Source: an uncultured Rhodopila sp.
Lineage (GTDB): Bacteria; Pseudomonadota; Alphaproteobacteria; Acetobacterales; Acetobacteraceae
DNA length: 64,000 nucleotides
Direction of reading: 5' to 3'
Assembly: GCF_903944925.1 (NCBI RefSeq)
Contig: NZ_CAJATU010000064.1
Location: forward strand, 1 to 64,000
Part shown: positions 1-16,071 of the stretch, in pieces
How the letters are laid out: every line of letters begins with the position of its first letter
How positions within the stretch are numbered: position 1 is the stretch's first letter
Notes under the pieces: generated by a model
Database searches by the model: none
The model's input: the letters and a program-made list of their open reading frames with translations, nothing else
Told to the model about the DNA's origin: nothing
Translations under genes and position numbers: made by a program

Positions 1-125
1 GCCGGGCGGCCACCGCGCGGGCCGCGCTGCTGACTGAAAGCGCCAACCGGGTGCGGGCCGGCCAAACCGTGCCGCATCCGCGGCCGGGCGACCTGGACTG
101 GATGAAGCCGCCGGACAAGCGGTAA
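1..125 (+). CDS. C-terminal end of an unidentified protein (partial)
   Basis: An open frame enters from the left edge and stops at a TAA at 123-125, giving about 40 C-terminal residues ending DWMKPPDKR. It is rich in Ala, Arg and Pro and shows no recognisable motif. The window does not contain enough of it to assign a family. Confidence 0.5.
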   Translation, partial: RAATARAALLTESANRVRAGQTVPHPRPGDLDWMKPPDKR

Positions 126-274
126 CGCCGGGGCGGCATCGTCGGCGCCCTTAATTTCATCACAAAACGCATAAATCCAATGCTGCGCGGCCCGATTATT
201 TCCCTTCGCGGATAGCCCATCTCAGCCTCCATGAAAGCCGGACATCTCGCCCGACTGAAGTTGGAGATACTCCG

Positions 275-427
275 ATGAAGAACCTGATCCTTGCCGCCCT
301 TGCAGCCGTCAGCCTGACCGGCGCGCTCGCGCCCCTGGCGAATGCCGCGACGCTCCACAACGGCAGCACTGTTGCCGGCGATGCGGCGGCCACGCGCATC
401 CAGCAGACCGGCGGCTATAGCCAATAA
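275..427 (+). CDS. small secreted peptide, 50 aa
   Basis: The ATG at 275 follows a GGAG at 263-266. The product begins with a clear Sec signal peptide (MKNLILAALAAVSLTGALA, cleavage expected near ANA-A), leaving a mature peptide of only about 25 residues ending GGYSQ. A Rho-independent terminator lies 30 bp after the stop, so this is a complete monocistronic unit. No function is recognised. The ribosome site, signal peptide and terminator together make it likely to be a real gene. Confidence 0.6.
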   Translation: MKNLILAALAAVSLTGALAPLANAATLHNGSTVAGDAAATRIQQTGGYSQ

Positions 428-457
428 GCCGAGAGTTTCAATCCCAACGATCGCACG

Positions 458-485
458 AAGGCCGGTTTCCGAACCGGCCTTTTTG
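458..485 (+). terminator. Rho-independent terminator after the small secreted peptide
   Basis: A perfect 10-bp stem (AAGGCCGGTT / AACCGGCCTT) with a 4-nt loop is followed by a T-run (480-484). It isolates the small peptide gene from the ABC transporter operon downstream. Confidence 0.85.
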
Positions 486-519
486 CTGTTCGCAGCGCGC
501 CCCGCAAATGTTCGGCCGC

Positions 520-543
520 GTACGAACGGCCCCGCCTCCGTAC
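520..543 (+). promoter_or_regulatory. candidate VnfA upstream activator site (GTAC-N16-GTAC)
   Basis: GTAC at 520-523 and GTAC at 540-543 are separated by 16 bp, and the left half reads GTACGAACGGCCC. The site between vnfD and the NifX-glyoxalase gene has the same GTAC-N16-GTAC spacing and begins GTACGAATGGCCC. In both cases the site ends 64 bp from a -24 element. VnfA of Azotobacter is known from the literature to use paired GTAC half-sites, though with a shorter spacer. Assignment here is inference from the match. Confidence 0.6.
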
Positions 544-606
544 ATCCCGGTGAGATCGGGATCACCCGGACGCCCCGCGTCCGCTATGAACCATCGAGCA
601 CAACGC

Positions 607-622
607 TGGTACGGTTCCTGCA
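607..622 (+). promoter_or_regulatory. sigma-54 -24/-12 promoter for the PhnCDE-type operon
   Basis: TGGTACGGTTCCTGCA matches the RpoN consensus TGGCACG-N4-TTGCW with correct GG/GC spacing and two mismatches. It lies 64 bp downstream of the GTAC-N16-GTAC site. The predicted start of transcription is near 633, very close to the first ATG at 639, so either the leader is very short or translation begins at a later non-ATG codon. Confidence 0.55.
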
Positions 623-638
623 CACCATCCCTCCGCAG

Positions 639-1544
639 ATGATCCAGTTACCCGCCCCGACATCCGTTCGTTGCTTTGGCGCTGATGGCTACGGCCCGGC
701 GCCGCTGATATCCCGCGCCGCCCCGCTGCTGCGCTATGAGCAACAAGATATCGCGCCCGGCAGCGGCACGGTCGACATCGGCGCGGTAACCCTCGATCGC
801 GTAACGCTGAAACGAAACGGCCGTGCCATCCTCAGCAACCTGACCCTGGCGTTTCCCCGGGGCACCATCACCGCCCTCGTCGGCTGCTCGGGCGTCGGCA
901 AGTCCACGCTGATGGGCGCGCTGAACGGACTGATCGCCCCCGCCGCCGGCAGCATCTGCATCGCCGGGGCCGGACGGCTCGACGATGCGAAATCGTTGCG
1001 GGAAGCGCGGCGCGGCACCGCAACGATCTTCCAGGACCACGCGCTGATCGACCGTCTGCCGGCCATCGACAATGTGCTGCTGGGCCTCGCCGACATGCGC
1101 CATCCGCTGTCGCCCCTGCCATGGCCGAAGTCGTTCCGCATACGCGCAGCCATCGCGCTCGACGAAGTCGGCCTGTTAGCCCGCGCCACCGCCCGCGCCG
1201 GCCAGCTTTCCGGCGGCGAGCGCCAGCGCGTCGGCATCGCCCGCGCGCTGGTCCGGCGCCCGCGCCTGCTGCTGGGGGACGAGCCGTTCGCCTCGGTCGA
1301 CCCGGTGCTGGCGCGGCAGCTTGGCGAGGCGTTCCGCAGCCTGGTGGTGCGCAACGGCCTCACCGTCATTCTGGTGCTGCATCAGATACCCCTCGCGCGC
1401 ACCCTTGCTGATCGCATCGTCGGTCTGGCGGACGCGCGCGTGGCCTTCGACGGCCCCGCCGCCGATTTCGATTCCGCAGCCGAGGACGCGGTGTTTTCCG
1501 CCGCTCCTGCACGAAAAAGGTCCACGCCATGTTCAGCCGACTAA
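639..1544 (+). CDS. phnC: PhnC-type ABC transporter ATPase, candidate vanadate importer subunit
   Basis: ATP-hydrolysing subunit of a PhnCDE-family importer. Visible motifs are Walker A GCSGVGKS (about residue 81), the Q-loop (IFQDH), the signature LSGGERQRVG (about 190), Walker B LLLGDEP and a switch His (VLHQ). In-frame ATG 639 is chosen, giving about 301 aa with a longer N-terminus than usual; homology to the family only begins near residue 45, so the true start is uncertain. The gene overlaps the next one by 16 bp. Family members carry phosphonate, phosphite or phosphate. The sigma-54 promoter and GTAC sites shared with vnfD suggest that here the oxyanion may be vanadate, a phosphate mimic; that is inference. 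Confidence 0.8.
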   Translation: MIQLPAPTSVRCFGADGYGPAPLISRAAPLLRYEQQDIAPGSGTVDIGAVTLDRVTLKRNGRAILSNLTLAFPRGTITALVGCSGVGKSTLMGALNGLIAPAAGSICIAGAGRLDDAKSLREARRGTATIFQDHALIDRLPAIDNVLLGLADMRHPLSPLPWPKSFRIRAAIALDEVGLLARATARAGQLSGGERQRVGIARALVRRPRLLLGDEPFASVDPVLARQLGEAFRSLVVRNGLTVILVLHQIPLARTLADRIVGLADARVAFDGPAADFDSAAEDAVFSAAPARKRSTPCSAD

Positions 1545-2413
1545 GCCGCCGTCTCCTGCTGACCGCCCCGCTGCTCGCCGCGCTGCCGCTGCATCGCGCC
1601 GCGGCGCAGGACCGCCCGAAAAAGCTTGTCGTCGGCTTGCTGCCCGGCGAATCCGCCCCGACGGTGATGCGTCTGAACGAACCGTTGCGCGCCTACCTGG
1701 AAAAGCGGCTCGGCCTGCCGGTGGAACTGGCCGTCGGCGCCGACTATGCCGCCACCGGTGAGGCGCTGCGCTTCGGCCGCCTCGACATCGCGTTTCTCGG
1801 GCCGGTGACCTACATCCTGCGGTCGCGCAGCGCCAGGCTGGAACCGTTCGCCCGGCCGTCCCATGCCGTTGTCGGACCGACATTCACCGCGGTGGTCATC
1901 GTGCCGGCCGATAGCACGGCGCAGACCTTGGCCGATCTGAAGGGCGGCGAGGTGGCGTTCGGCGATCCGGCCTCCACCTCCGGCACCTGGGTGCCGCGCT
2001 ATCAGTTGCTGCGCGCCGGCCAGGTGTCGGGTCGCGATTACACGCTGCGTGTGCTGGGGGCGCACGACGCTGTCGCCCTCGCGGTGGCGAACCATCGCGT
2101 GGCGGCCGGCGGCCTGTCCCAGCCGGTCTACGCGCGCCTGCTGAAGGAAGGCAAGATCGACCCCGGGGCTGTTCGGGTGCTGGAACAATCCCCGCCGATA
2201 CCGGAATATATGTGGACCTTCCGCCAGGGCATCGACCCGGCGTTCAAGGAGGAAGTCCGCCAGGCCTTCATCCACGTCGATGACCCGGCGGCGCTGAAGG
2301 TCTTCAACGCCGAAGCCTTCATCCCCGCGGTCGATTCGGATGTGGACCGGGTGCGCGGCTGGATCAACGCGATCCAGGCCGCCAATCCCGACGCGGTCCC
2401 GCCACCGGTATGA
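1529..2413 (+). CDS. phnD: PhnD-type periplasmic oxyanion-binding protein
   Basis: Periplasmic substrate-binding protein of the importer, 294 aa. It opens with a twin-arginine-like or Sec signal (SRLSRRLLLTAPLLAALPLHRAAA). The PhnD hallmarks follow: LVVGLLPGESAPTVMRLNEPL, the RFGRLDIAFLGPVTYIL segment that lines the oxyanion pocket, the FGDPASTSGTWVPRY loop, and repeated aromatic or acidic residues near the C-terminus. It overlaps phnC upstream and shares ATGA with phnE. The substrate cannot be told from sequence alone. The vnf-type promoter of the operon argues for vanadate or another anion needed during V-dependent diazotrophy. Confidence 0.82.
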   Translation: MFSRLSRRLLLTAPLLAALPLHRAAAQDRPKKLVVGLLPGESAPTVMRLNEPLRAYLEKRLGLPVELAVGADYAATGEALRFGRLDIAFLGPVTYILRSRSARLEPFARPSHAVVGPTFTAVVIVPADSTAQTLADLKGGEVAFGDPASTSGTWVPRYQLLRAGQVSGRDYTLRVLGAHDAVALAVANHRVAAGGLSQPVYARLLKEGKIDPGAVRVLEQSPPIPEYMWTFRQGIDPAFKEEVRQAFIHVDDPAALKVFNAEAFIPAVDSDVDRVRGWINAIQAANPDAVPPPV

Positions 2414-3228
2414 GTGCCAGCGCGCCCGCCGGCATCGAGGCCATTCTCGCCGACAGCCGCCGCCGGCTGTATGGCAGTGTCCTGTCCGGCGGCGCGGTCC
2501 TGCTGGTGGTCATCAGCGCTTTCGCCTACGGCGATGCCTTCGACCTGCACCGCTATGGCGACGCCTTGCCGACGATATGGCAGTTGGCGAAGGACGCCAT
2601 GCCGCCGGATTTCAGCCGCTGGACCCAATGGGGGCGGCCGTTGCTGGAAACCCTGGCCATGAGCGTTGCCGGCACCGCCCTGGCTGTCTGCGCCGCCTTG
2701 CCGCTTGCGGCGTTGGCCGCGCGCAACGTGGTGCGCCAGCCCTGGCTGGGCGAACCGGTGCGGCTGATGCTGAACGGGATCCGCTCGATTCCGGGACTGA
2801 TCTGGGGGGTGATCTTCGTCGCGGCGGTCGGCTTCGGGCCGCTGCCCGGGATACTGGCGCTGGCGACCCACAGCACCGGCATGCTGGCCAAGCTGTTCGC
2901 CGAGACGCTGGAGCACGTCGATCCCGGCCCCGGCGACGCGATGCGCAGCCATGGGGTTTCCCGCTCGGGCGTGCTGCGCTTTTCGGTGCTGCCGCAGATC
3001 CTGCCGCGCCTGGTGGACGTGACGCTTTACCGGTGGGAACACAATCTGCGTGCCGCGACGACATTGGGCGTGGTCGGGGCAGGGGGATTGGGGCTGGAGA
3101 TCATCACCGCCTTCCATCTGTTCGGATACCGCGAAGCCTCAGCGCTGATCATCGTGCTGCTCGGGCTGGTAACGTTCATCAACGTGGCGGGCGGGTTGTT
3201 GCGGGGGCGGTTCCTGGCCGGCGGGTGA
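2410..3228 (+). CDS. phnE: PhnE-type ABC transporter permease
   Basis: Inner-membrane permease of the importer, 272 aa, with about six hydrophobic segments. Residues around 110-130 (GIRSIPGLIWGVIFVAAVG) and around 195-225 (LYRWEHNLRAATTLGVVGAGGLG) are characteristic of the PhnE family; the latter is the cytoplasmic coupling (EAA-like) loop. ATGA overlap with phnD indicates translational coupling. No fourth subunit follows, so the transporter is a standard three-gene importer. The 3' end overlaps the convergent HTH gene by about 50 bp. Confidence 0.82.
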   Translation: MSASAPAGIEAILADSRRRLYGSVLSGGAVLLVVISAFAYGDAFDLHRYGDALPTIWQLAKDAMPPDFSRWTQWGRPLLETLAMSVAGTALAVCAALPLAALAARNVVRQPWLGEPVRLMLNGIRSIPGLIWGVIFVAAVGFGPLPGILALATHSTGMLAKLFAETLEHVDPGPGDAMRSHGVSRSGVLRFSVLPQILPRLVDVTLYRWEHNLRAATTLGVVGAGGLGLEIITAFHLFGYREASALIIVLLGLVTFINVAGGLLRGRFLAGG

Positions 3229-3753: not shown

Positions 3754-4245
3754 TCAGACTTCCTGCTCGTCCAGTGCCAGCCGAAGCCCGTCTGAATCGC
3801 GCATGACCCGGCGCATCCACAGCGGCGGAACGCCCTTCATGAGGCGCTGCACGTTGGAAATGACCTCGTCGATATCGCGTATCGTCGCGCTCATGACCGG
3901 GAAAATCTTCAGCGCATGGATGCGGAAGGCGGCGAGGTCGCTCAGGCCGAGCGTGAACAGCACGGAGCAGCCCTTCAGGGCATCGACCCGGTCCACCAAC
4001 GGATCGCGGCCGGTGCCGTCGTCATCGCCCATGTCGTCCATGATGCAGGTGCCGAGGTCCTTGCCCAGGCCGCCGCCGGGACCCTTCTTGGCCATGCCGC
4101 CGGGACCGAAATGGATCACGTCGACGAATTCCGAGCTGTCCCTGGTGACGTCGTAAAACACGACCTGCCTGGCGGCGGCGAAATTCGCGTCAACCTGGAT
4201 CAGGCTGTTCGTGGTGACGGCGATACGAAGATGCGGGGCATCCAT
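3754..4245 (-). CDS. NifX-family cofactor-binding protein, last gene of the vnfDGK operon
   Basis: 163 aa of the NifX/NafY/VnfY superfamily (dinitrogenase cofactor-binding fold). Seen: LRIAVTTNSLIQVDANFAAARQVVFYDV at the N-terminus, a central GCSVLFTLGLSDLAAFRIHALKIFPV, and the C-terminal PPLWMRRVM motif found in NifX proteins of nif clusters. Such proteins carry FeMo/FeV-cofactor precursors or hold apo-dinitrogenase. It follows the 297-aa gene by 18 bp and is the last gene of the leftward operon. One of three NifX-like proteins in the window; the division of labour between them is unknown. Confidence 0.8.
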   Translation of the reverse strand: MDAPHLRIAVTTNSLIQVDANFAAARQVVFYDVTRDSSEFVDVIHFGPGGMAKKGPGGGLGKDLGTCIMDDMGDDDGTGRDPLVDRVDALKGCSVLFTLGLSDLAAFRIHALKIFPVMSATIRDIDEVISNVQRLMKGVPPLWMRRVMRDSDGLRLALDEQEV

Positions 4246-5221: not shown

Positions 5222-6622
<1,401 letters not shown>

Positions 6623-6639: not shown

Positions 6640-8537
<1,898 letters not shown>

Positions 8538-8540
8538 TCA

Positions 8541-8564
8541 GTACGAATGGCCCGGGAAGAGTAC
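8541..8564. promoter_or_regulatory. shared VnfA activator site between divergent vnf promoters
   Basis: GTAC at 8541-8544 and 8561-8564, spacer 16 bp, left half GTACGAATGGCCC. It lies 64 bp upstream of the vnfD -24 box and 43 bp upstream of the -24 box of the NifX-glyoxalase gene, so one site could serve both directions. An outer inverted repeat GTTCCG/CGGAAC (8531-8536, 8576-8581) brackets it. Confidence 0.65.
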
Positions 8565-8606
8565 ACGCCGGTGCGCGGAACGTCGTAGCTGGCCCCGCAT
8601 AACGTC

Positions 8607-8622
8607 TGGCACGGAGGTTGCG
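8607..8622 (+). promoter_or_regulatory. sigma-54 -24/-12 promoter of the NifX-glyoxalase/Nif11 unit
   Basis: TGGCACGGAGGTTGCG is a near-perfect RpoN site (TGGCACG-N4-TTGC). Transcription would start near 8633, 28 nt before the ATG at 8661. Confidence 0.88.
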
Positions 8623-8660: not shown

Positions 8661-9452
8661 ATGTCCATCGACACGATTGAAAAACCCCAAGCGGCTACCA
8701 CGACCCTGCGGATTGCCGTTGCCACCAAGGATGACATCCGCATCGACCAGCATTTCGGCCACGCTGAATCTTTCCTGGTGTACGATGTCACCGCCGATGG
8801 CGTCACGCCGCTCGGCCGCCGCGAAATCGCCGCCCACGCCGAGGGTGAGGACGAAGACCCGCGCCAGACCATCCTCCGCATGCTCGCCGACTGCAAAGTC
8901 CTGCTGGTCGCCAAAATCGGCCCCAACCCGCAACAACAGCTTTCTACTGTCGGTATCGAAGCCTCTGACATGCTGGCGGGCAAGCCCATCGAAACGGCGC
9001 TGGAAATGACGTTTGCGGCAAAGAACGTGGATCATGGCAGCGCGGCGGTGGATGCCTCAACGTTTCGCCTGATGCACGCCATGCTGCGGGTCAGCGATCT
9101 CGACCGGGCCTTGGAATTTTACACCACCCAGCTAGGCATGCAGGTGCTGGAGCGCCGCGACCACAAAAAGAACCAGTTCTCCCAGGCCTATATCGGTTAC
9201 GCGGACGGATATGCGCAGATGACGCTGGAATTGGTGTCGAACTGGGATCACGAAGGACCGTATTCCGACGGCGAATCGTTCGGCCACATCGCCATTCAGG
9301 TCCGCGGCATTACCGCCCTGTGCGACCGCCTGTCGGCCGCCGGCGTAAAGATGCCGCGCCCGCCGCGCGCCCAGCGCCACGGCGAAAATATCGTCGCCTT
9401 CATCGAAGATCCGGACGGTCACCAGATCGAACTGGTGCAATTGCCCAACTAA
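8661..9452 (+). CDS. NifX-like cofactor-binding domain fused to a glyoxalase/VOC domain
   Basis: 263 aa with two domains. Residues about 15-125 are NifX-like (LRIAVATKDDIRIDQHFGHAESFLVYDV; KVLLVAKIGPNPQQQLSTVGI), a fold that binds nitrogenase cofactor or its precursors. Residues about 133-262 are a lactoylglutathione-lyase-type VOC domain (MHAMLRVSDLDRALEFYTTQLGM; the metal-ligand-like ESFGHIAIQV and FIEDPDGHQIELVQ). Linker HGSAAVDASTF joins them in one frame. The start ATG follows GGTTCCTCC poorly but sits 28 nt from a sigma-54 start site. The gene is divergent from vnfD and shares its activator site; Nif11 follows 10 bp later. Which substrate the VOC domain acts on, or whether it is only a binding module, is unknown. 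Confidence 0.88.
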   Translation: MSIDTIEKPQAATTTLRIAVATKDDIRIDQHFGHAESFLVYDVTADGVTPLGRREIAAHAEGEDEDPRQTILRMLADCKVLLVAKIGPNPQQQLSTVGIEASDMLAGKPIETALEMTFAAKNVDHGSAAVDASTFRLMHAMLRVSDLDRALEFYTTQLGMQVLERRDHKKNQFSQAYIGYADGYAQMTLELVSNWDHEGPYSDGESFGHIAIQVRGITALCDRLSAAGVKMPRPPRAQRHGENIVAFIEDPDGHQIELVQLPN

Positions 9453-9462
9453 GGAGCTTACC

Positions 9463-9681
9463 ATGTCAGTAGAATCCGCCGTTGCCTATATCAAGCGCAT
9501 GCGCGAGGACGATGCGTTTCGCCGCGTGCTCAATGACAACAGCGAAGACGAAGCCGCCAACTGGGCTTTCGTCAAGGAAAACGGTTACGAATTCACCATG
9601 TCCGAGTTCAAGGCGGCGCAGGACGGTATCTACAAGGAATATGGGGTCGATCCCGACCAGGCGATTCAGGTCGGTTCGTAG
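9463..9681 (+). CDS. Nif11-family small protein
   Basis: 72 aa matching the Nif11 domain: a helical N-terminus MSVESAVAYIKRMREDDAFR, a central acidic/Trp stretch and a FTMSEFKAAQDGIYKEYG segment. Nif11 proteins occur in nitrogen-fixation clusters of diazotrophs, function unknown; the same fold serves as leader peptide in some RiPP systems, but no modifying enzyme is nearby and the C-terminus lacks a GG cleavage site. AGGAG precedes the ATG by seven bases, and it is co-transcribed with the NifX-glyoxalase gene. Confidence 0.85.
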   Translation: MSVESAVAYIKRMREDDAFRRVLNDNSEDEAANWAFVKENGYEFTMSEFKAAQDGIYKEYGVDPDQAIQVGS

Positions 9682-10080: not shown

Positions 10081-11676
10081 CTACTGGTTGGTGTCACCAC
10101 GGCGAAACGTCTTGTAGCTGATGCTATGCTTTTCCATCCGCAAGCCAAGGATGCGGCGCGTCAGGCCGAGTTCTTTGGCAGCTTCAGTCATGTTACCGTT
10201 ATGGGCCTTCAGCGTCTCGACGATCATTTCGTACTCGACGGCATGGATCTTTGCCTCCAGGCTGCAGCCGAAGGCAGTGCCGGTTTCGGCCGAAGTCTGC
10301 AGCGAAGGCGGCAAATTGTAGCCGTGGATCACCGCATCGTCCGACAGGATGACGGACCGTTCGATGACATTCTCCAGCTCGCGCACATTGCCCGGCCAAT
10401 GATACGCCATCAGCATATTCAGCGCAGGCGTGGAAATGCGCTTCACCGCCTTGCCGCCCTCGGCCGAGTAACGTGCGGCAAAATAATCCGCCAGCAGAAT
10501 CACATCGCTGCCGCGCTCTCGCAGCGCCGGCACGGTGATCGGGAAAACATTCAGCCGGTAATAGAGATCTTCGCGAAAGGTTCCCTTCGCCACCATGTCG
10601 GGCAGGTCGCGGTTGGTTGCGGCGATGATGCGCAAATCGACCTTGACCGGACGGTTGCCGCCCACCCTCTCGAACGCCCTCTCCTGCAACACCCGCAACA
10701 ACTTCGCCTGGATCGGCAGGCTCAGCTCGCCGACTTCATCGAGGAAAATCGTGCCGCCGTCAGCCTGCTCGAAGCGCCCCTTGCGCATCATCGCGGCCCC
10801 GGTGAAGGCACCCTTTTCATGCCCGAACAACTCGCTTTCGACGATGTTTTCAGGCAGCGCCGCACAGTTGAAGGTAATCAGCGGGCCGTCGGCATTCGGG
10901 CCGTGGTAGTGGATCGCGTTGGCAACAAGCTCCTTGCCGACACCGCTCTCACCCAGGACCAGCACCGTCGCCTTGGTCGCCGCCACCTTGTGCACAAGCT
11001 CGTAGACTTCCTGCATCGGCTTGGAGTTGCCGATGATGTTGGAAGGCTTGAACCGTTCCCGCAGTGCATTCTTCAGACGGCGGTTTTCGGTCTCCAGCCG
11101 CACTTTCGAAATATTCTCCATCAGGTACAACTCGACGGCAGGGCCGATCATCGAGGCGATGGTTGCCAACAGTTCGACGTCCTGCTTCAACAGGCCGCGA
11201 TTCAGATAGACTCGTTCCGCGCTGATTGTACCGACAACTTTCTTCGCGTGCATGATCGGCACACACACAAACGACGCCTTGGCGTTGCTGTGGTCGCCAT
11301 CCGCCGCACCAGTGTCGACAAACCCCGGCTGGTCGCGCAAATGCGGAACGATGAACGCGGTGCCGCTTTCCACCACCTTGGTGGTAATGCCGCCGGACGG
11401 GGCATAAAGACCGCTCGCCTGCTCCGCTTCCGTCAGGCCGAAGCTTTCATGGATGAAGATGGAGTCGGACTGATTGTCATACAGCGCCACCATGCCGCGG
11501 CGCATGCGCAAACGCTGCCGCATCACCTGAAGCATGACCGATAATGTGGTCGCCAGATCCTGGTTTTCCGCCATGATCTGACTGATCTGGAACAGAATCG
11601 GCAACATGTTCACGCGGCACTCGCCGGTGAAGCAATGCGTGAAATCTTCGACGTCGATGGCGATCGATTGCTCCAT
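10081..11676 (-). CDS. vnfA: sigma-54-dependent activator of V-nitrogenase genes
   Basis: 531 aa with the NifA/VnfA/AnfA layout. Residues 1-25 carry two Cys (15 and 20, HCFTGEC), equivalent to the Cys-rich start of VnfA/AnfA that is thought to hold an Fe-S cluster. A GAF domain spans about 35-185. The AAA+ domain (about 212-440) has Walker A GESGVGKE (242-249), the sigma-54 contact loop GAFTGA (289-294), Walker B IFLDE (310-314) and an arginine-finger region. A Fis-type HTH ends the protein (about 490-525, NMTEAAKELGLTRRILGLRM). It is transcribed divergently from vnfE and is the obvious activator for the four sigma-54 promoters here. Confidence 0.92.
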   Translation of the reverse strand: MEQSIAIDVEDFTHCFTGECRVNMLPILFQISQIMAENQDLATTLSVMLQVMRQRLRMRRGMVALYDNQSDSIFIHESFGLTEAEQASGLYAPSGGITTKVVESGTAFIVPHLRDQPGFVDTGAADGDHSNAKASFVCVPIMHAKKVVGTISAERVYLNRGLLKQDVELLATIASMIGPAVELYLMENISKVRLETENRRLKNALRERFKPSNIIGNSKPMQEVYELVHKVAATKATVLVLGESGVGKELVANAIHYHGPNADGPLITFNCAALPENIVESELFGHEKGAFTGAAMMRKGRFEQADGGTIFLDEVGELSLPIQAKLLRVLQERAFERVGGNRPVKVDLRIIAATNRDLPDMVAKGTFREDLYYRLNVFPITVPALRERGSDVILLADYFAARYSAEGGKAVKRISTPALNMLMAYHWPGNVRELENVIERSVILSDDAVIHGYNLPPSLQTSAETGTAFGCSLEAKIHAVEYEMIVETLKAHNGNMTEAAKELGLTRRILGLRMEKHSISYKTFRRGDTNQ

Positions 11677-11845
11677 GTCGGTCCCGCTTCACCCCTTGCC
11701 ATTACCCGAAAGCCATAGATGCAAGGACGATGCCAGCATCAAAATACGCTAACAGACTGATAACCCACAAAACCGCTATTGTCAGGTTGCTACCAATCGC
11801 CACACCCGGTCGACTTTGAGACATTGGCGAAATCCGTTCGGAAAG

Positions 11846-11878
11846 GTACAAACGGCCGGGAATGCGCCGATGATGTAC
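11846..11878 (+). promoter_or_regulatory. candidate VnfA sites upstream of vnfE
   Basis: Two half-sites GTACAAACGGCC (11846) and GTACGAACCC (11875) lie in the vnfA-vnfE gap, the second ending 77 bp before the -24 element. Their core matches GTACGAAYGGCC at the vnfD and phnC sites, although the spacing between them is 25 bp rather than 16. The rest of this 334-bp divergent gap (11677-12010) shows no further clear element for the vnfA promoter. Confidence 0.5.
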
Positions 11879-11954
11879 GAACCCTCACTCTATTCGTCCG
11901 CCGATCCGGCGGCTTTTGCGGGGAAAACCGTTATAGCCGAGTTATGCACCAAAC

Positions 11955-11970
11955 TGGCCCGGCGATTGCT
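11955..11970 (+). promoter_or_regulatory. sigma-54 -24/-12 promoter of the vnfENX operon
   Basis: TGGCCCGGCGATTGCT fits TGGCACG-N4-TTGCW with one mismatch and correct spacing. Predicted transcription start is near 11981, about 30 nt before the vnfE ATG. This also argues against any vnfE start upstream of 12011. Confidence 0.78.
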
Positions 11971-12010
11971 TTCAGTACCGATGCGCCACCACAGCCAGCG
12001 AGGCCAAGCC

Positions 12011-13396
12011 ATGAAAACCGACGAACTCCTTGCGCTGATGAACGAGCCCGCCTGTGCGCATAACGCCAAGTCGAAATCCGGTTGCGCCAAGCCGCAGCCC
12101 GGCGCCACGCAGGGGGGATGCTGCTTCGACGGCGCCCGCAACGCTTTGCTGCCCATCGCCGACGCCGCCCATATAGTACATGGGCCGATTGGCTGCGCCG
12201 GTTCGTCGTGGGACAATCGCGGCACGCGTTCAAGTGGAGCCGATTTGTTCAGGGTGGGAATGACGACGGATTTGTCGGACATGGATGTCATCATGGGCCG
12301 CGGCGAAAAGCGGCTGTTCAAAGCGGTGCGCCAGGCGGTCGAGACCTATCATCCCGCCGGCGTCTTCATCTACAATACCTGCGTGCCGGCGCTGCAAGGC
12401 GACGATATCGAAACGGTGGCGAAGGCCGCGGCCGAGCGGTTCGGCGTCCCGGTGGTGCCGGTCGATTGCGCCGGGTTCTACGGCAACAAAAACCTCGGCA
12501 ACCGTATCGGCGGTGAGGCTGTCTATAAGCATGTCATCGGCACGCGCGAACCCGATCCGGTTCCGGCTTCCGCCCAACGGCCCGGCATCGTCACTCACGA
12601 CATCAATCTGATTGGCGAATGGAATGTCGGCGGAGAGTTCTGGGCCGTCGCGCCGCTGTTCGATGAACTCGGCCTGCGCATCCTATGTACCTTCTCAGGC
12701 GATTCTCGTTTCCGGGAAGTGCAGACCATGCACCGCGCCGAGGCCAACATGGTCGTCTGCTCCAAGGCCATGATCCAGGTCGCCCGGAAATTGCAGGAAG
12801 ACTACGGCACGCCGTTCATCGAAGGCAGCTTCTACGGCATCGCCGACACGTCACGGGCTTTTCGCGATATCGCCGGTATGCTGAACGATCCCGACCTGAC
12901 CGCTCGGACCGAGGCGATGATTGCCCGCGAGGAAGCCAAGGTCGAAGCCGCGCTGGCACCCCTGAAGCCGCGCCTGGCCGGCAAGCGCGTGCTGATCTTC
13001 ACCGGCGGCTACAAGTCCTGGTCGATCGTTTCCGCCATGCAGGATCTCGGCATGGAGGTCGTCGCCACCGGAACGGAGAAATCCACCGAAGAAGACAAGG
13101 CCCGCATCATCGAACTGATGGGACCGGACGCAAAGATGATTTCCGACAATGACCAGATCGCCCTGCTGCAGACGTTTCGCGAATGTCGCGGCGATATCCT
13201 GATCGCCGGCGATCGTTACATCTATCCGACCCTGAAATCGCGCATCCCGTTTCTCGACATCGATCACGTCCGCCGCATCGGCTATGCCGGTTATGACGGA
13301 ATGATCGAACTCGCCGGCAACCTGGTGCACGTCGCCCACTCGCCGGTCTGGAAAAAGGTCCAGACCCGCACCGAAGCGCAGCGGCAAGCGGCGTAG
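12011..13396 (+). CDS. vnfE: V-nitrogenase cofactor scaffold subunit VnfE (NifE family)
   Basis: 461 aa; with VnfN forms the scaffold on which the NifB-derived cluster is converted to FeV-cofactor. NifE features: a Cys-rich N-terminus ([26 protein letters not shown]), P-cluster-type Cys62 ([12 protein letters not shown]) and Cys124 ([12 protein letters not shown]), and the Cys-containing [22 protein letters not shown] 12011 is chosen because it follows the sigma-54 start site and begins [13 protein letters not shown] like other VnfE/NifE; an upstream ATG at 11816 would precede the promoter. vnfN follows 11 bp later. Confidence 0.9.
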
Positions 13397-13407: not shown

Positions 13408-14778
13408 ATGGCCGAAATCCTCCACCCCACCAAGGCGCTTGCGGTCAATCCGTTGAAGACCAGCCAGCCCATCGGCGCGTCGCTGGCGTTTCTCGGCCTG
13501 GCGAACTCGATGCCGCTGGAGCATGGCGCGCGCGGCTGCACGTCGTTCAACAAGCTGTTCTTCATGCGTCATTTCCACGATCCGATCGCTCTGCAAACGA
13601 CGGCCATGGACCACGTGATCGCGGTGATGGGGGCGGACGGCAACGTGGTCGAAGCGCTCGCCACCATTTGCACCAGGAATCGCCCCTCCGTCATCGGCCT
13701 GATCACCACGGGCCTGTCGGAAATGCAGGGCGCCGACATCCAGCGCACCGTGGCGATGTTTCGCACCCGGTTTCCCGGCTACGACGATGTCGCGGTCATT
13801 CCGGTTGCCACCACCGACACCATCGGCTGCCTGGAAAGCGGCTTCGCCCGCGCGGTCGAGGCGATCATTACGACCCTGGTGCCGCCAACCCCAAGCATCA
13901 TCCGTCACCGGCGGCGAGTGAATGTGCTGGCTTCCGCCATGCTCACCCCGGGCGATGTCGAAGCGATCAAGAGTGTCGTCAACGCTTTCGGCCTGACCGC
14001 GATCGTCCTGCCGGATATTGCGGATTCACTGGACGGTCATCTGATCGAGGAAGGATTCTCGACACTGACCTATGGCGGCACCCCGCCCGCTTCCATTGCG
14101 GAGATGGGTCAATCCGCCGCCACGCTGGTCATCGGTCCCTCCATGTACAAGGCAGCCGATCTGCTGCACGCCAGGACGGGATTGCCGGATTATCGTGTCG
14201 CCAGCCTCATCGGCCTGGACGGCTCCGACGCCTTCTGCCGCGCCCTGTCGGAAATCGCCGGCTGTGCCGTCCCGCCGATAATCGAACGCCAACGCTCCCA
14301 GTTGCAGGACGCCATGGTCGATTGCCAATTCCAACTCGGCGGCGCCCGGGTGGCAATCGCGGCGGATGCCGATTTGCTGTGCGCGCTGACCGGTTTCTTT
14401 ACCGATATGGGGGCGGACGTCGTCGGTGCGGTCGCCGCCGGGCGCGCCGCGCATCTCGTGGATCTGCCGATTGCGTCCGTCGTCGTCGGCGACCTCGAGG
14501 ATCTGGAGTTTCTGGCGCGCGAAGGCCGCGCCGATATGATCGTCACCAATTCGCACGGCGCGGAAATCGCGCGGCGGCAGCAGACGGCGCTGCTGCGGGC
14601 CGGCTTCCCGATCTACGATTCGTTCGGCGCCCACACCGTTACCCGCGCCGGCTATGCCGGCACCCGTCAACTACTGTTCGAAACCGCAAACCTGCTGGCC
14701 GGGCACTACCAGGAAATTCGCCCCTACCGGTCCCGTTATTGGCAAGGAACGCCGCGCGAGGATGAAGTTACATGCTAA
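13408..14778 (+). CDS. vnfN: V-nitrogenase cofactor scaffold subunit VnfN (NifN family)
   Basis: 456 aa, partner of VnfE. It begins with the NifN hallmark KALAVNPLKTSQPIGASLAFLGL, then HGARGCTSFNKLFFMRHFHDPIALQTTAMD, which is diagnostic for NifN/VnfN. The domain arrangement is that of dinitrogenase beta-like proteins. GGGGA 8-12 bp upstream serves as ribosome site. The stop overlaps the vnfX start by seven bases, indicating coupled translation. Confidence 0.9.
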   Translation: MAEILHPTKALAVNPLKTSQPIGASLAFLGLANSMPLEHGARGCTSFNKLFFMRHFHDPIALQTTAMDHVIAVMGADGNVVEALATICTRNRPSVIGLITTGLSEMQGADIQRTVAMFRTRFPGYDDVAVIPVATTDTIGCLESGFARAVEAIITTLVPPTPSIIRHRRRVNVLASAMLTPGDVEAIKSVVNAFGLTAIVLPDIADSLDGHLIEEGFSTLTYGGTPPASIAEMGQSAATLVIGPSMYKAADLLHARTGLPDYRVASLIGLDGSDAFCRALSEIAGCAVPPIIERQRSQLQDAMVDCQFQLGGARVAIAADADLLCALTGFFTDMGADVVGAVAAGRAAHLVDLPIASVVVGDLEDLEFLAREGRADMIVTNSHGAEIARRQQTALLRAGFPIYDSFGAHTVTRAGYAGTRQLLFETANLLAGHYQEIRPYRSRYWQGTPREDEVTC

Positions 14779-15242
14779 GAATTGCCTTTGCCTCCAGCGA
14801 CCGCACCACGGTCAACCTGCATTTCGGCGGCGCCGAAAGCCTCATGATCTACGACGTCTCCCCCGGCCGAGCCGATTTGATCGGCGTTGGCGAGTTCATG
14901 AAAGCCGAAGCCGTCGGGGAAAGCGGACGCACCGGACTGACTGGAACGGTGCAGGACAAGGTGCTGCCGAAACTCGATTTCGTCGGCGAATGTTCCGCCG
15001 TCTACGCCGCGTCCATCGGCAGTTCCTCCATACGCAGACTGATGAAACTGGGCATTCAGCCCATCATCGTCGATACCGGCCACGAAATCCTCGATCTGCT
15101 GAACGAGGTCTCGCTGGCCCTGGTGCATGGCGGCCTCGCCTGGGTCGATCGCGCCAAGGCCAAGGCGCTTACGGCGCCCCAAAAGGAAACCGCGGGCGCG
15201 CCACGGCACGTGCTGCTCAGCTCGCTCGATGATTTGGAATGA
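14772..15242 (+). CDS. vnfX: VnfX cofactor-carrier protein (NifX family)
   Basis: 156 aa. N-terminus MLRIAFASSDRTTVNLHFGGAESLMIYDV is the NifX core; SAVYAASIGSSSIRRLMKLGIQPI and ILDLLNEVSLALVHGGLAWVDRA follow. VnfX in Azotobacter binds NifB-cofactor and a V-containing FeV-co precursor, shuttling between NifB, VnfEN and the dinitrogenase. Position directly after vnfN, overlapping it by seven bases, supports the name over generic NifX. Confidence 0.88.
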   Translation: MLRIAFASSDRTTVNLHFGGAESLMIYDVSPGRADLIGVGEFMKAEAVGESGRTGLTGTVQDKVLPKLDFVGECSAVYAASIGSSSIRRLMKLGIQPIIVDTGHEILDLLNEVSLALVHGGLAWVDRAKAKALTAPQKETAGAPRHVLLSSLDDLE

Positions 15243-15249
15243 AACGACC

Positions 15250-16071
15250 ATGAAGCTCGCCGTTTCCAACCTGGCTTTGCCCGCTTACTACCATCTCGGC
15301 ATGCTGCCGTTCGTCCACAGCCTGGGCGTCGAAGGGCTGGAGGTCGTTCCGGCCCACACCTGGCCCGACCTGGTCTCCTCACGCATGGTGGAAAGCTACC
15401 GCGCGGCGGCCGAGCAAGCCGGACTCTCGGTCATCGGCATGCACGGACTGTTCCGCCATCGCCCCGATCTCGGCATCTTCACCGCCGCCGACAAACGCGC
15501 CCGCAGCCTGGAACTGCTGGTTCAGCTCTCCGCGGTGACGCGCGACCTGGGCGGCCGGACGCTGGTGCTTGAATCGCGCTGGCGCAACGATATCGCGGAG
15601 CGCGAGGCCTGGCTGCAATGCCGCGACTTCCTGCACGAAGTCCTGCCGCGGATCGAAGGCCACGGCACTGTGCTGTGCTTTGCGCCGCTTGCCCCGGAAG
15701 GCGGGGATTTCTGCACGCTGGCGAGGCATTGCTACATGCTGACCAACGCCATCGACCATGATTCGTTCGGCCTGCATCTCGGTGCCGCCGCGCTGTCGGC
15801 GAATGGCGAGATGGGACACACCACATTCGCCGCGGTGCGCGGACGCCTGGAACTGATCCATCTCGATGAACCGGACCATGCCGTGCTCGGCAGCTCGGGC
15901 CGGGTCGATCACACTGACATGCGAAACCACCTGGCGGCGATCACCTACACGGGCTGGGCCTCGCTGGTGCAGACGGCGTCCGCGGAACCGGCGACAAGCC
16001 TGAAGCAGGGACTACGTTTTTTCGCCGACAGCTACATGTCGGCCGGCACCAAACGAGGCATCCGGGTATGA
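15250..16071 (+). CDS. TIM-barrel protein of the sugar phosphate isomerase/AP endonuclease 2 superfamily
   Basis: 273 aa. The start ATG 15250 follows the vnfX stop by seven bases. The sequence MKLAVSNLALPAYY...GVEGLEVVPAHTWPDL...GLSVIGMHGLF...FGLHLGAAALSANGEM...LELIHLDEPDH is the pattern of xylose-isomerase-like TIM barrels, in which His, Glu and Asp usually bind divalent metals. Here several of the usual ligands are replaced (for example LHLGAAAL instead of DxGH), so catalysis may be altered or lost. Its place inside the vnfENX operon, ATGA-coupled to a NifU-type scaffold, implies a part in FeV-cofactor synthesis, for instance handling of an organic ligand; this is inference. Confidence 0.75.
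   Translation: MKLAVSNLALPAYYHLGMLPFVHSLGVEGLEVVPAHTWPDLVSSRMVESYRAAAEQAGLSVIGMHGLFRHRPDLGIFTAADKRARSLELLVQLSAVTRDLGGRTLVLESRWRNDIAEREAWLQCRDFLHEVLPRIEGHGTVLCFAPLAPEGGDFCTLARHCYMLTNAIDHDSFGLHLGAAALSANGEMGHTTFAAVRGRLELIHLDEPDHAVLGSSGRVDHTDMRNHLAAITYTGWASLVQTASAEPATSLKQGLRFFADSYMSAGTKRGIRV

Follow-up and report, generated by a model that had tools for sequence, protein, structure and literature searches.

The window, by which we mean the whole 64,000-nucleotide stretch that was analyzed, carries a V-nitrogenase cluster. In it, vnfDGK and a VnfY-like gene are encoded on the minus strand, and vnfD is followed by a gene for a two-domain fusion protein and a Nif11 gene (plus strand), vnfA (minus strand), and then vnfE, vnfN, vnfX and a TIM-barrel gene (plus strand). 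The features of the locus are as follows.

342 to 3228, plus strand: phosphonate-type ABC transporter genes, possibly for vanadate uptake (VodABC-like)
3754 to 4245, minus strand: VnfY-like gene, NifX fold without the HFG histidine, named by position and analogy only
5222 to 6610, minus strand: vnfK (TIGR02932, 894 bits against a cut-off of 874)
6640 to 6993, minus strand: vnfG (PF03139)
6990 to 8408, minus strand: vnfD, divergent from the fusion gene (TIGR01860, 995 bits against a cut-off of 823)
8531 to 8544, plus strand: predicted VnfA-type enhancer GTTCCGATCAGTAC, which fits the published VnfA1 motif (motif match)
8561 to 8574, plus strand: putative second VnfA-like enhancer GTACACGCCGGTGC, 30 bp downstream of the first and differing from the published motif by one base (motif match)
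8607 to 8621, plus strand: predicted sigma-54-type promoter TGGCACGGAGGTTGC (pattern kept in all fusion loci)
8661 to 9452, plus strand: fusion gene (NifX-VOC), 263 aa (ORF and Pfam)
8733 to 9008, plus strand: N-terminal Nitro_FeMo-Co domain, residues 25 to 116, HFG motif with H31 (Pfam, alignment and tree)
9069 to 9434, plus strand: C-terminal GloA-type glyoxalase/VOC domain, residues 137 to 258 (Pfam and alignment)
9463 to 9681, plus strand: Nif11-domain gene, next after the fusion gene
10081 to 11676, minus strand: vnfA, sigma-54 activator, named by context (best model NifA, below its cut-off)
11816 to 13396, plus strand: vnfE, vnf by context (NifE model above cut-off); the ORF begins upstream of the homology
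13408 to 14778, plus strand: vnfN, vnf by context (NifN model above cut-off)
14772 to 15242, plus strand: vnfX, named by context (NifX fold with HFG motif)

Vanadate transport has been proposed for phosphonate-type ABC transporters that adjoin vnf genes, as described in PMC4465626 and in PMC9542535, where they are called vodABC. The start of the vnfE ORF at 11816 is probably too far upstream; sigma-54-like sites at 11955 to 11970 (plus strand) and at 11735 (minus strand) could serve vnfE and vnfA. The TIM-barrel gene 3′ of vnfENX (15247 to 16071, plus strand) is xylose-isomerase-like, and a gene of this kind also follows vnfENX in loci L032, L036, L038, L039, L089, L092 and L141. No vnfH is present in the 64-kb window. 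The nif cluster of the same genome (L033) has a nifH that shares 90% identity with the vnfH of L092, and thus one Fe protein may serve both systems in this organism.

The first-pass annotation described a single 263-aa protein with a NifX-like N-terminus and a complete VOC domain, and this architecture stands. Translation of the ORF at 8661 to 9452 (plus strand) gives a protein that ends in FIEDPDGHQIELVQ, in which the Nitro_FeMo-Co domain (Pfam PF02579) is matched at E 8e-20 (71.3 bits against a cut-off of 26.3) and the Glyoxalase domain, at residues 137 to 258, at E 2e-21, also above the Pfam cut-off. Nitro_FeMo-Co is matched at E 0.001 by all 12 fusion orthologues scanned. As full-length orthologues occur in other genera and families, the fusion is no assembly artefact. 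The AlphaFold2 model (12 sequences; mean pLDDT 80.7) presents two mostly confident domains, with low confidence at residues 1 to 12 and in the inter-domain segment 124 to 135; its pTM of 0.46 means that the relative placement of the domains is not fixed by the model.

That the gene has its own sigma-54 promoter was confirmed at the level of pattern. The exact TGGCACG-N3-GTTGC occurs once in the window (chance expectation 0.015), as TGGCACGGAGGTTGC at 8607 to 8621, and is found upstream of the fusion gene in 16/16 fusion loci. The VnfA1 motif, as reported from ChIP-seq in A. vinelandii, is GT(T/A)C-N6-GTAC and occurs mostly twice per promoter. This strict form is present in 13 of the 16 fusion loci, the window among them, while L032, L087 and L088 have the enhancer only as GTAC-N6-GTGC. 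The relaxed form GT(A/T)C-N6-GT(A/G)C, within 260 bp upstream of the sigma-54 site, is found at least once in all 16 loci, and 12 of them have two matches 29–30 bp apart. Among 8000 random 260-bp stretches drawn from these loci, 4% contain the relaxed form, a contrast that is somewhat favourable because the pattern was relaxed after inspection of these promoters. The VnfA-like enhancers argue that the fusion gene is probably a VnfA target and, as had been proposed, a member of the vnf regulon. On the minus strand, TGGCACGGCCTGTGC at 8463 to 8477 resembles, by eye, a sigma-54 site that could serve the divergent vnfD; its −12 part has a single mismatch.

An accidental fusion without function that travels with a mobile vnf cluster is already disfavoured and appears extremely unlikely. 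A published suggestion that the vnf genes of R. palustris were maybe gained by horizontal transfer would suit it, as would the broken gene of G828 (L092 11860–12635), which is split over two frames inside the VOC domain and reflects either a sequencing error or a decaying gene. It is opposed by the low dN/dS of both domains (0.06–0.17 against two Rhodopila orthologues) and by the promoter and enhancer patterns, kept in 16/16 loci from four families.

The distribution of the fusion follows that of V-nitrogenase. Of the 18 genomes found to encode a V-type alpha subunit, all of them alphaproteobacterial, 16 carry the fusion, and these span four families. The anticipated co-occurrence with vnfD is seen in the two groups in which both genes were sought, where the fusion accompanies vnfD in 14/14 genomes and is found in 0/74 without it, among the matches listed. 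In the genus Rhodopila (33 genomes), to which the window genome belongs and which includes R. globiformis, an alternative-nitrogenase alpha subunit scores above cut-off in G000, G007, G024 and G029; the fusion occurs in 4/4 of these and in 0/29 of the remainder, again among the matches listed. The same four genomes carry the full-length fusion among 98 genomes (among the matches listed, in E-value order), 25 of which belong to other genera of the family and were searched for the fusion alone. VnfD exceeds its cut-off in 10 of the 55 genomes of the G100 family, and the fusion was found in 10/10 of these compared with 0/45 of those without VnfD; two of the ten genes are incomplete, that of G801 being cut by a contig end and that of G828 broken in frame. 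Fisher tests give p = 2e-5 for Rhodopila (among the matches listed) and p = 3e-11 for the G100 family, neither corrected for relatedness. The fusion was not found in G841, G850 and G853 of the G100 family, which have only a sub-cut-off, presumably Anf-type, alpha subunit, nor in G1057. It had not been expected in organisms with Mo-nitrogenase only, and G004 and G023 (89% and 68% complete), with a presumed Mo-type alpha subunit only, below cut-off, yielded none among the matches listed.

Wider searches added few vnf genomes. A search of the order (248 genomes) contributed G942, which has the fusion, and G896 and G930, in which it was not found; G1573, a guess at whose genus would be that it may be Rhodopseudomonas, is a further vnf genome with the fusion. 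In the class and phylum samples (385 and 398 genomes) only G000 and G100 exceed the VnfD cut-off. No genome does so in the G474 family (346 genomes) or in the G418 family (188 genomes), where nine have sub-cut-off, presumably Anf-type, matches. None of 400 matching plasmid records covers 80% of the fusion in one place. A contig scan of a named collection, made with Rhodopila-specific patterns and hence blind to distant fusions, returned three close relatives, all Rhodopila, with 80–97% identity over the N-domain. An orthologue is carried by R. globiformis DSM 161.

Both fused and split versions had been anticipated in other vnf genomes. Fused versions are the ones encountered; in the few loci read for split versions there was none, as L107 and L108, which have vnf genes without the fusion, contain no ORF that best matches either domain (20 kb and 13 kb). 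On the Nostoc plasmid, no glyoxalase/VOC gene is annotated within 12 kb of vnfD, in a gene table that is incomplete and omits vnfD itself, and comparison of this stretch with reference proteins by blast matched only VnfD and an Fe protein. L108 does encode, between vnfA and vnfE (437–1072), an additional protein of the NifX fold that lacks the HFG histidine. A relative of the N-domain, 31% identical over residues 17–100, lies on a deltaproteobacterial contig (L029 10001–10258). Since the fusion is missing from two vnf genomes (G896 and G930), the protein is accessory and not generally obligatory. The same holds for the putative step, suggested earlier, in which a cofactor precursor meets a ligand: these two genomes do without the gene, and the accounts of the Azotobacter vnf cluster, in the excerpts available, mention no such gene.

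The fusion gene adjoins vnfD, divergently, in 16/16 loci. A Nif11 gene follows it in 12 of the 16, three of them with vnfH in between; none was seen after the fusion in L096, L106 and L141, and L087 ends inside the fusion. An Fe-protein gene lies directly 3′ in 5 of the 15 loci that are not cut off inside the fusion (L089, L092, L093, L096 and L141). In four of these it is a lone vnfH-type gene, named vnfH in L089, L092 and L093 because the Nif11 gene comes next and in L141 because a convergent vnfA comes next. The fifth, L096 (genome G852), has vnfD-vnfG, the fusion and nifH-nifD (3–1589, minus strand) on one 4.7-kb contig, so that the fusion sits between vnfDGK and nifH followed by a Mo-type nifD. 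A constant operon with vnfH was considered and rejected on account of this one locus in five. The order in G852 is evidence against a strictly V-only operon, and a V-limited role is not proven.

Structural and phylogenetic comparison of the N-domain provides insight into its kinship. Alignments included 12 of the 16 fusions, leaving out G801 (cut), G828 (broken), G814 (frame overruns) and G1573 (found later). The HFG motif is present in 16/16 fusions and aligns with that of the NafY core (PDB code 1P90; Z 15.6) and of NifX (PDB code 9IAN; Z 14.7). Its histidine is described as binding the cluster in NafY (H121; PMC8496260) and in NifX (H35; PMC13128457, PMC11938142). A 43-domain tree groups the fusion N-domains with the C-terminal domains of NifB (support 99/98) and sets them apart from NifX, VnfX and VnfY; this placement carries a long-branch warning, and the fusion N-domains form a single clade beside NifB-C in 8% of the bootstrap trees. 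Identity to the NifB C-terminal domain is 34–43% in the loci compared. The label "NifX-like" is right as to the Nitro_FeMo-Co domain, but the resemblance is closer to the C-terminal domain of NifB than to NifX, and the tree leads us to reject a plain NifX/VnfX orthologue. The NifX equivalog TIGR02663 gives the fusion 45.9 bits, below its cut-off of 112, but this score alone is no argument, as the neighbouring VnfX, at 68.7 bits, fails the same cut-off.

The fusion thus shares with NifX and VnfX the fold and the cluster-binding histidine, and with VnfX the locus, but differs from them in its NifB-C affinity and in the extra VOC domain. From NifB, whose C-terminal domain is its nearest relative in the tree and also keeps HFG, it differs in having a VOC domain attached in place of the radical-SAM part. 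The local VnfY-like protein is without the HFG histidine that the fusion has, and the histidine is absent from 8/8 VnfY-like domains examined; consequently, the HFG carriers at these loci are VnfX and the fusion. The VnfY-like protein of the window reads ANF where the carriers have HFG.

The C-terminal domain is a VOC domain, as first annotated, and more exactly a GloA-like one. Its nearest solved structures are bacterial glyoxalase I enzymes: E. coli Ni-GloA (PDB code 1F9Z; Z 17.3 over 124 residues) and GloA2 (PDB code 4MTS; Z 17.3). Residues H139, E190, H209 and E257 align with positions 5, 56, 74 and 122 of 1F9Z, which we take to be the E. coli GloA metal ligands H5, E56, H74 and E122. All four are invariant in 12 fusions and in 30 stand-alone GloA sequences, the latter counted after four more distant homologues of 34 had been dropped. 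R143 and N194 are likewise common to GloA. In contrast, E164, H168, N171, Q172, Q175, Y177, V192, R236, Q238 and R239 are invariant in the 12 fusions and occur in at most 2 of the 30 GloA; G801, outside this alignment, has R in place of Q172. Judging from the GloA fold, the changed loops (164–177 and 236–239) would line the active pocket. A tree of 46 VOC domains, 34 stand-alone ones included, puts the fusions on one side of a long branch (100/99). A VOC domain that is more basic overall was considered and rejected, net charges being −4 to −2 in the 12 fusions and −10 to +1 in the 30 GloA; basic residues are gained only in loops 168–172 and 236–239.

Fold and metal-ligand positions therefore tie the domain to GloA, a Ni/Zn lactoylglutathione lyase, from which it differs in its separate clade, its changed loops, the attached cofactor domain and the link to vnf. 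An active glyoxalase I attached to a NifX-type domain, serving in V-dependent growth to clear methylglyoxal or a different 2-oxoaldehyde, would account for the retained fold and ligand positions, for R143 and N194, and for the near miss on the glyoxalase I equivalog TIGR00068 (118.2 bits against a cut-off of 120). We consider it highly unlikely: a stand-alone GloA-like gene (42% identity) is present in the same genome, the fusion VOC domains make up a single clade whose branch is long and whose loops are changed, and such an activity gives no reason for the tie to vnf.

The same residues can be read as a site for a ligand of the cofactor. A VOC domain recruited from glyoxalase I would then load or deliver homocitrate, vanadium or carbonate, performing its chemistry on the FeV-cofactor while the NifB-type domain holds the cluster. 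Retention of the four metal-ligand positions, the newly conserved loop residues and the tandem arrangement with a lone vnfH-type gene in four loci all fit, but genomes with VnfDGK and no fusion must manage the same chemistry unaided, and we regard this reading as distinctly improbable.

NafY and AnfO likewise combine a NifX-type domain with a second one, and the NafY/VnfY/AnfO proteins act in cofactor delivery or sorting. NafY delivers FeMo-cofactor and AnfO blocks misloading of the Fe-only enzyme, as described in PMC11938142; the partner domain, a VOC domain in the fusion, is a sterile-alpha-motif domain in NafY as described. In the account of AnfO in the same source, an N-terminal NifX-like domain docks, the C-terminal domain captures cofactor and a histidine is required. 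By analogy, the fusion could be a fidelity guard, one domain docking on apo-VnfDGK or VnfEN and the other capturing the wrong cluster, FeMo-cofactor, so that mis-loading is prevented. The setting would suit such a guard: the window genome, G007 and G029 have a second, presumably Mo-type, nitrogenase alpha subunit (375–380 bits, below cut-off), and nifH-nifD adjoins the fusion in G852. However, docking in AnfO, as described, falls to the NifX-like domain and capture to the other one; the HFG motif of the fusion suggests the opposite arrangement. Moreover, AnfO, here compared by description only, has no VOC domain, its capturing C-terminal domain standing where the fusion has VOC, and the conserved metal-ligand positions suggest more than docking. 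A guard of this kind is, in our judgement, rather unlikely.

The fusion probably helps to build the metal cofactor of V-nitrogenase, and we favour, tentatively and with close to an even chance of being right, an accessory cofactor carrier whose partner domain is derived from GloA and bears a metal. The N-domain, of the NifB C-terminal, NifX-fold type, would bind NifB-co or the finished FeV-cofactor through H31. The VOC domain would be a GloA-derived, probably dimeric, metal-binding module with changed loops, and it would confer specificity on the carrier through an interaction with either a partner protein or a small anionic ligand. The cluster held at H31 might then be directed at VnfEN/VnfH or at the hand-over from VnfEN to VnfDGK. 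Pick-up at the NifB-co stage is suggested by the kinship of the N-domain with NifB. The step at VnfEN/VnfH is suggested by the linkage of vnfH in four loci, together with the belief, as stated in PMC11938142, that Fe-protein reductases are needed for NifB-co processing. Some observations count against the carrier. Two vnf genomes are without the fusion. The operon partner of the fusion in G852 belongs to the Mo system, as the gene lies between vnfDGK and nifH-nifD. In addition, VnfX already covers NifB-co trafficking, and the fusion may thus be redundant.

Literature searches on nitrogenase, NifX or vnf with glyoxalase found no description of the fusion. Both domains are known. Nothing on their combined architecture, on its link to V-nitrogenase or on the altered loops of the VOC domain came up in these searches, and annotated records may already give the gene the name glyoxalase or NifX. 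The routes by which vanadium and homocitrate are delivered to the FeV-cofactor, and the means of keeping three near-identical cofactors separate, are open questions in the field. A conserved vnf-linked gene with testable cluster and metal sites is a concrete handle on both, and the R. globiformis DSM 161 orthologue places it in a named strain. Efforts to reconstruct V-nitrogenase in other hosts could also draw on the fusion as a candidate component. Should the VOC domain indeed handle a ligand of the cofactor, the V-system would possess a maturation device that acts alongside VnfH and VnfEN, at a point for which the Mo system relies on other proteins.
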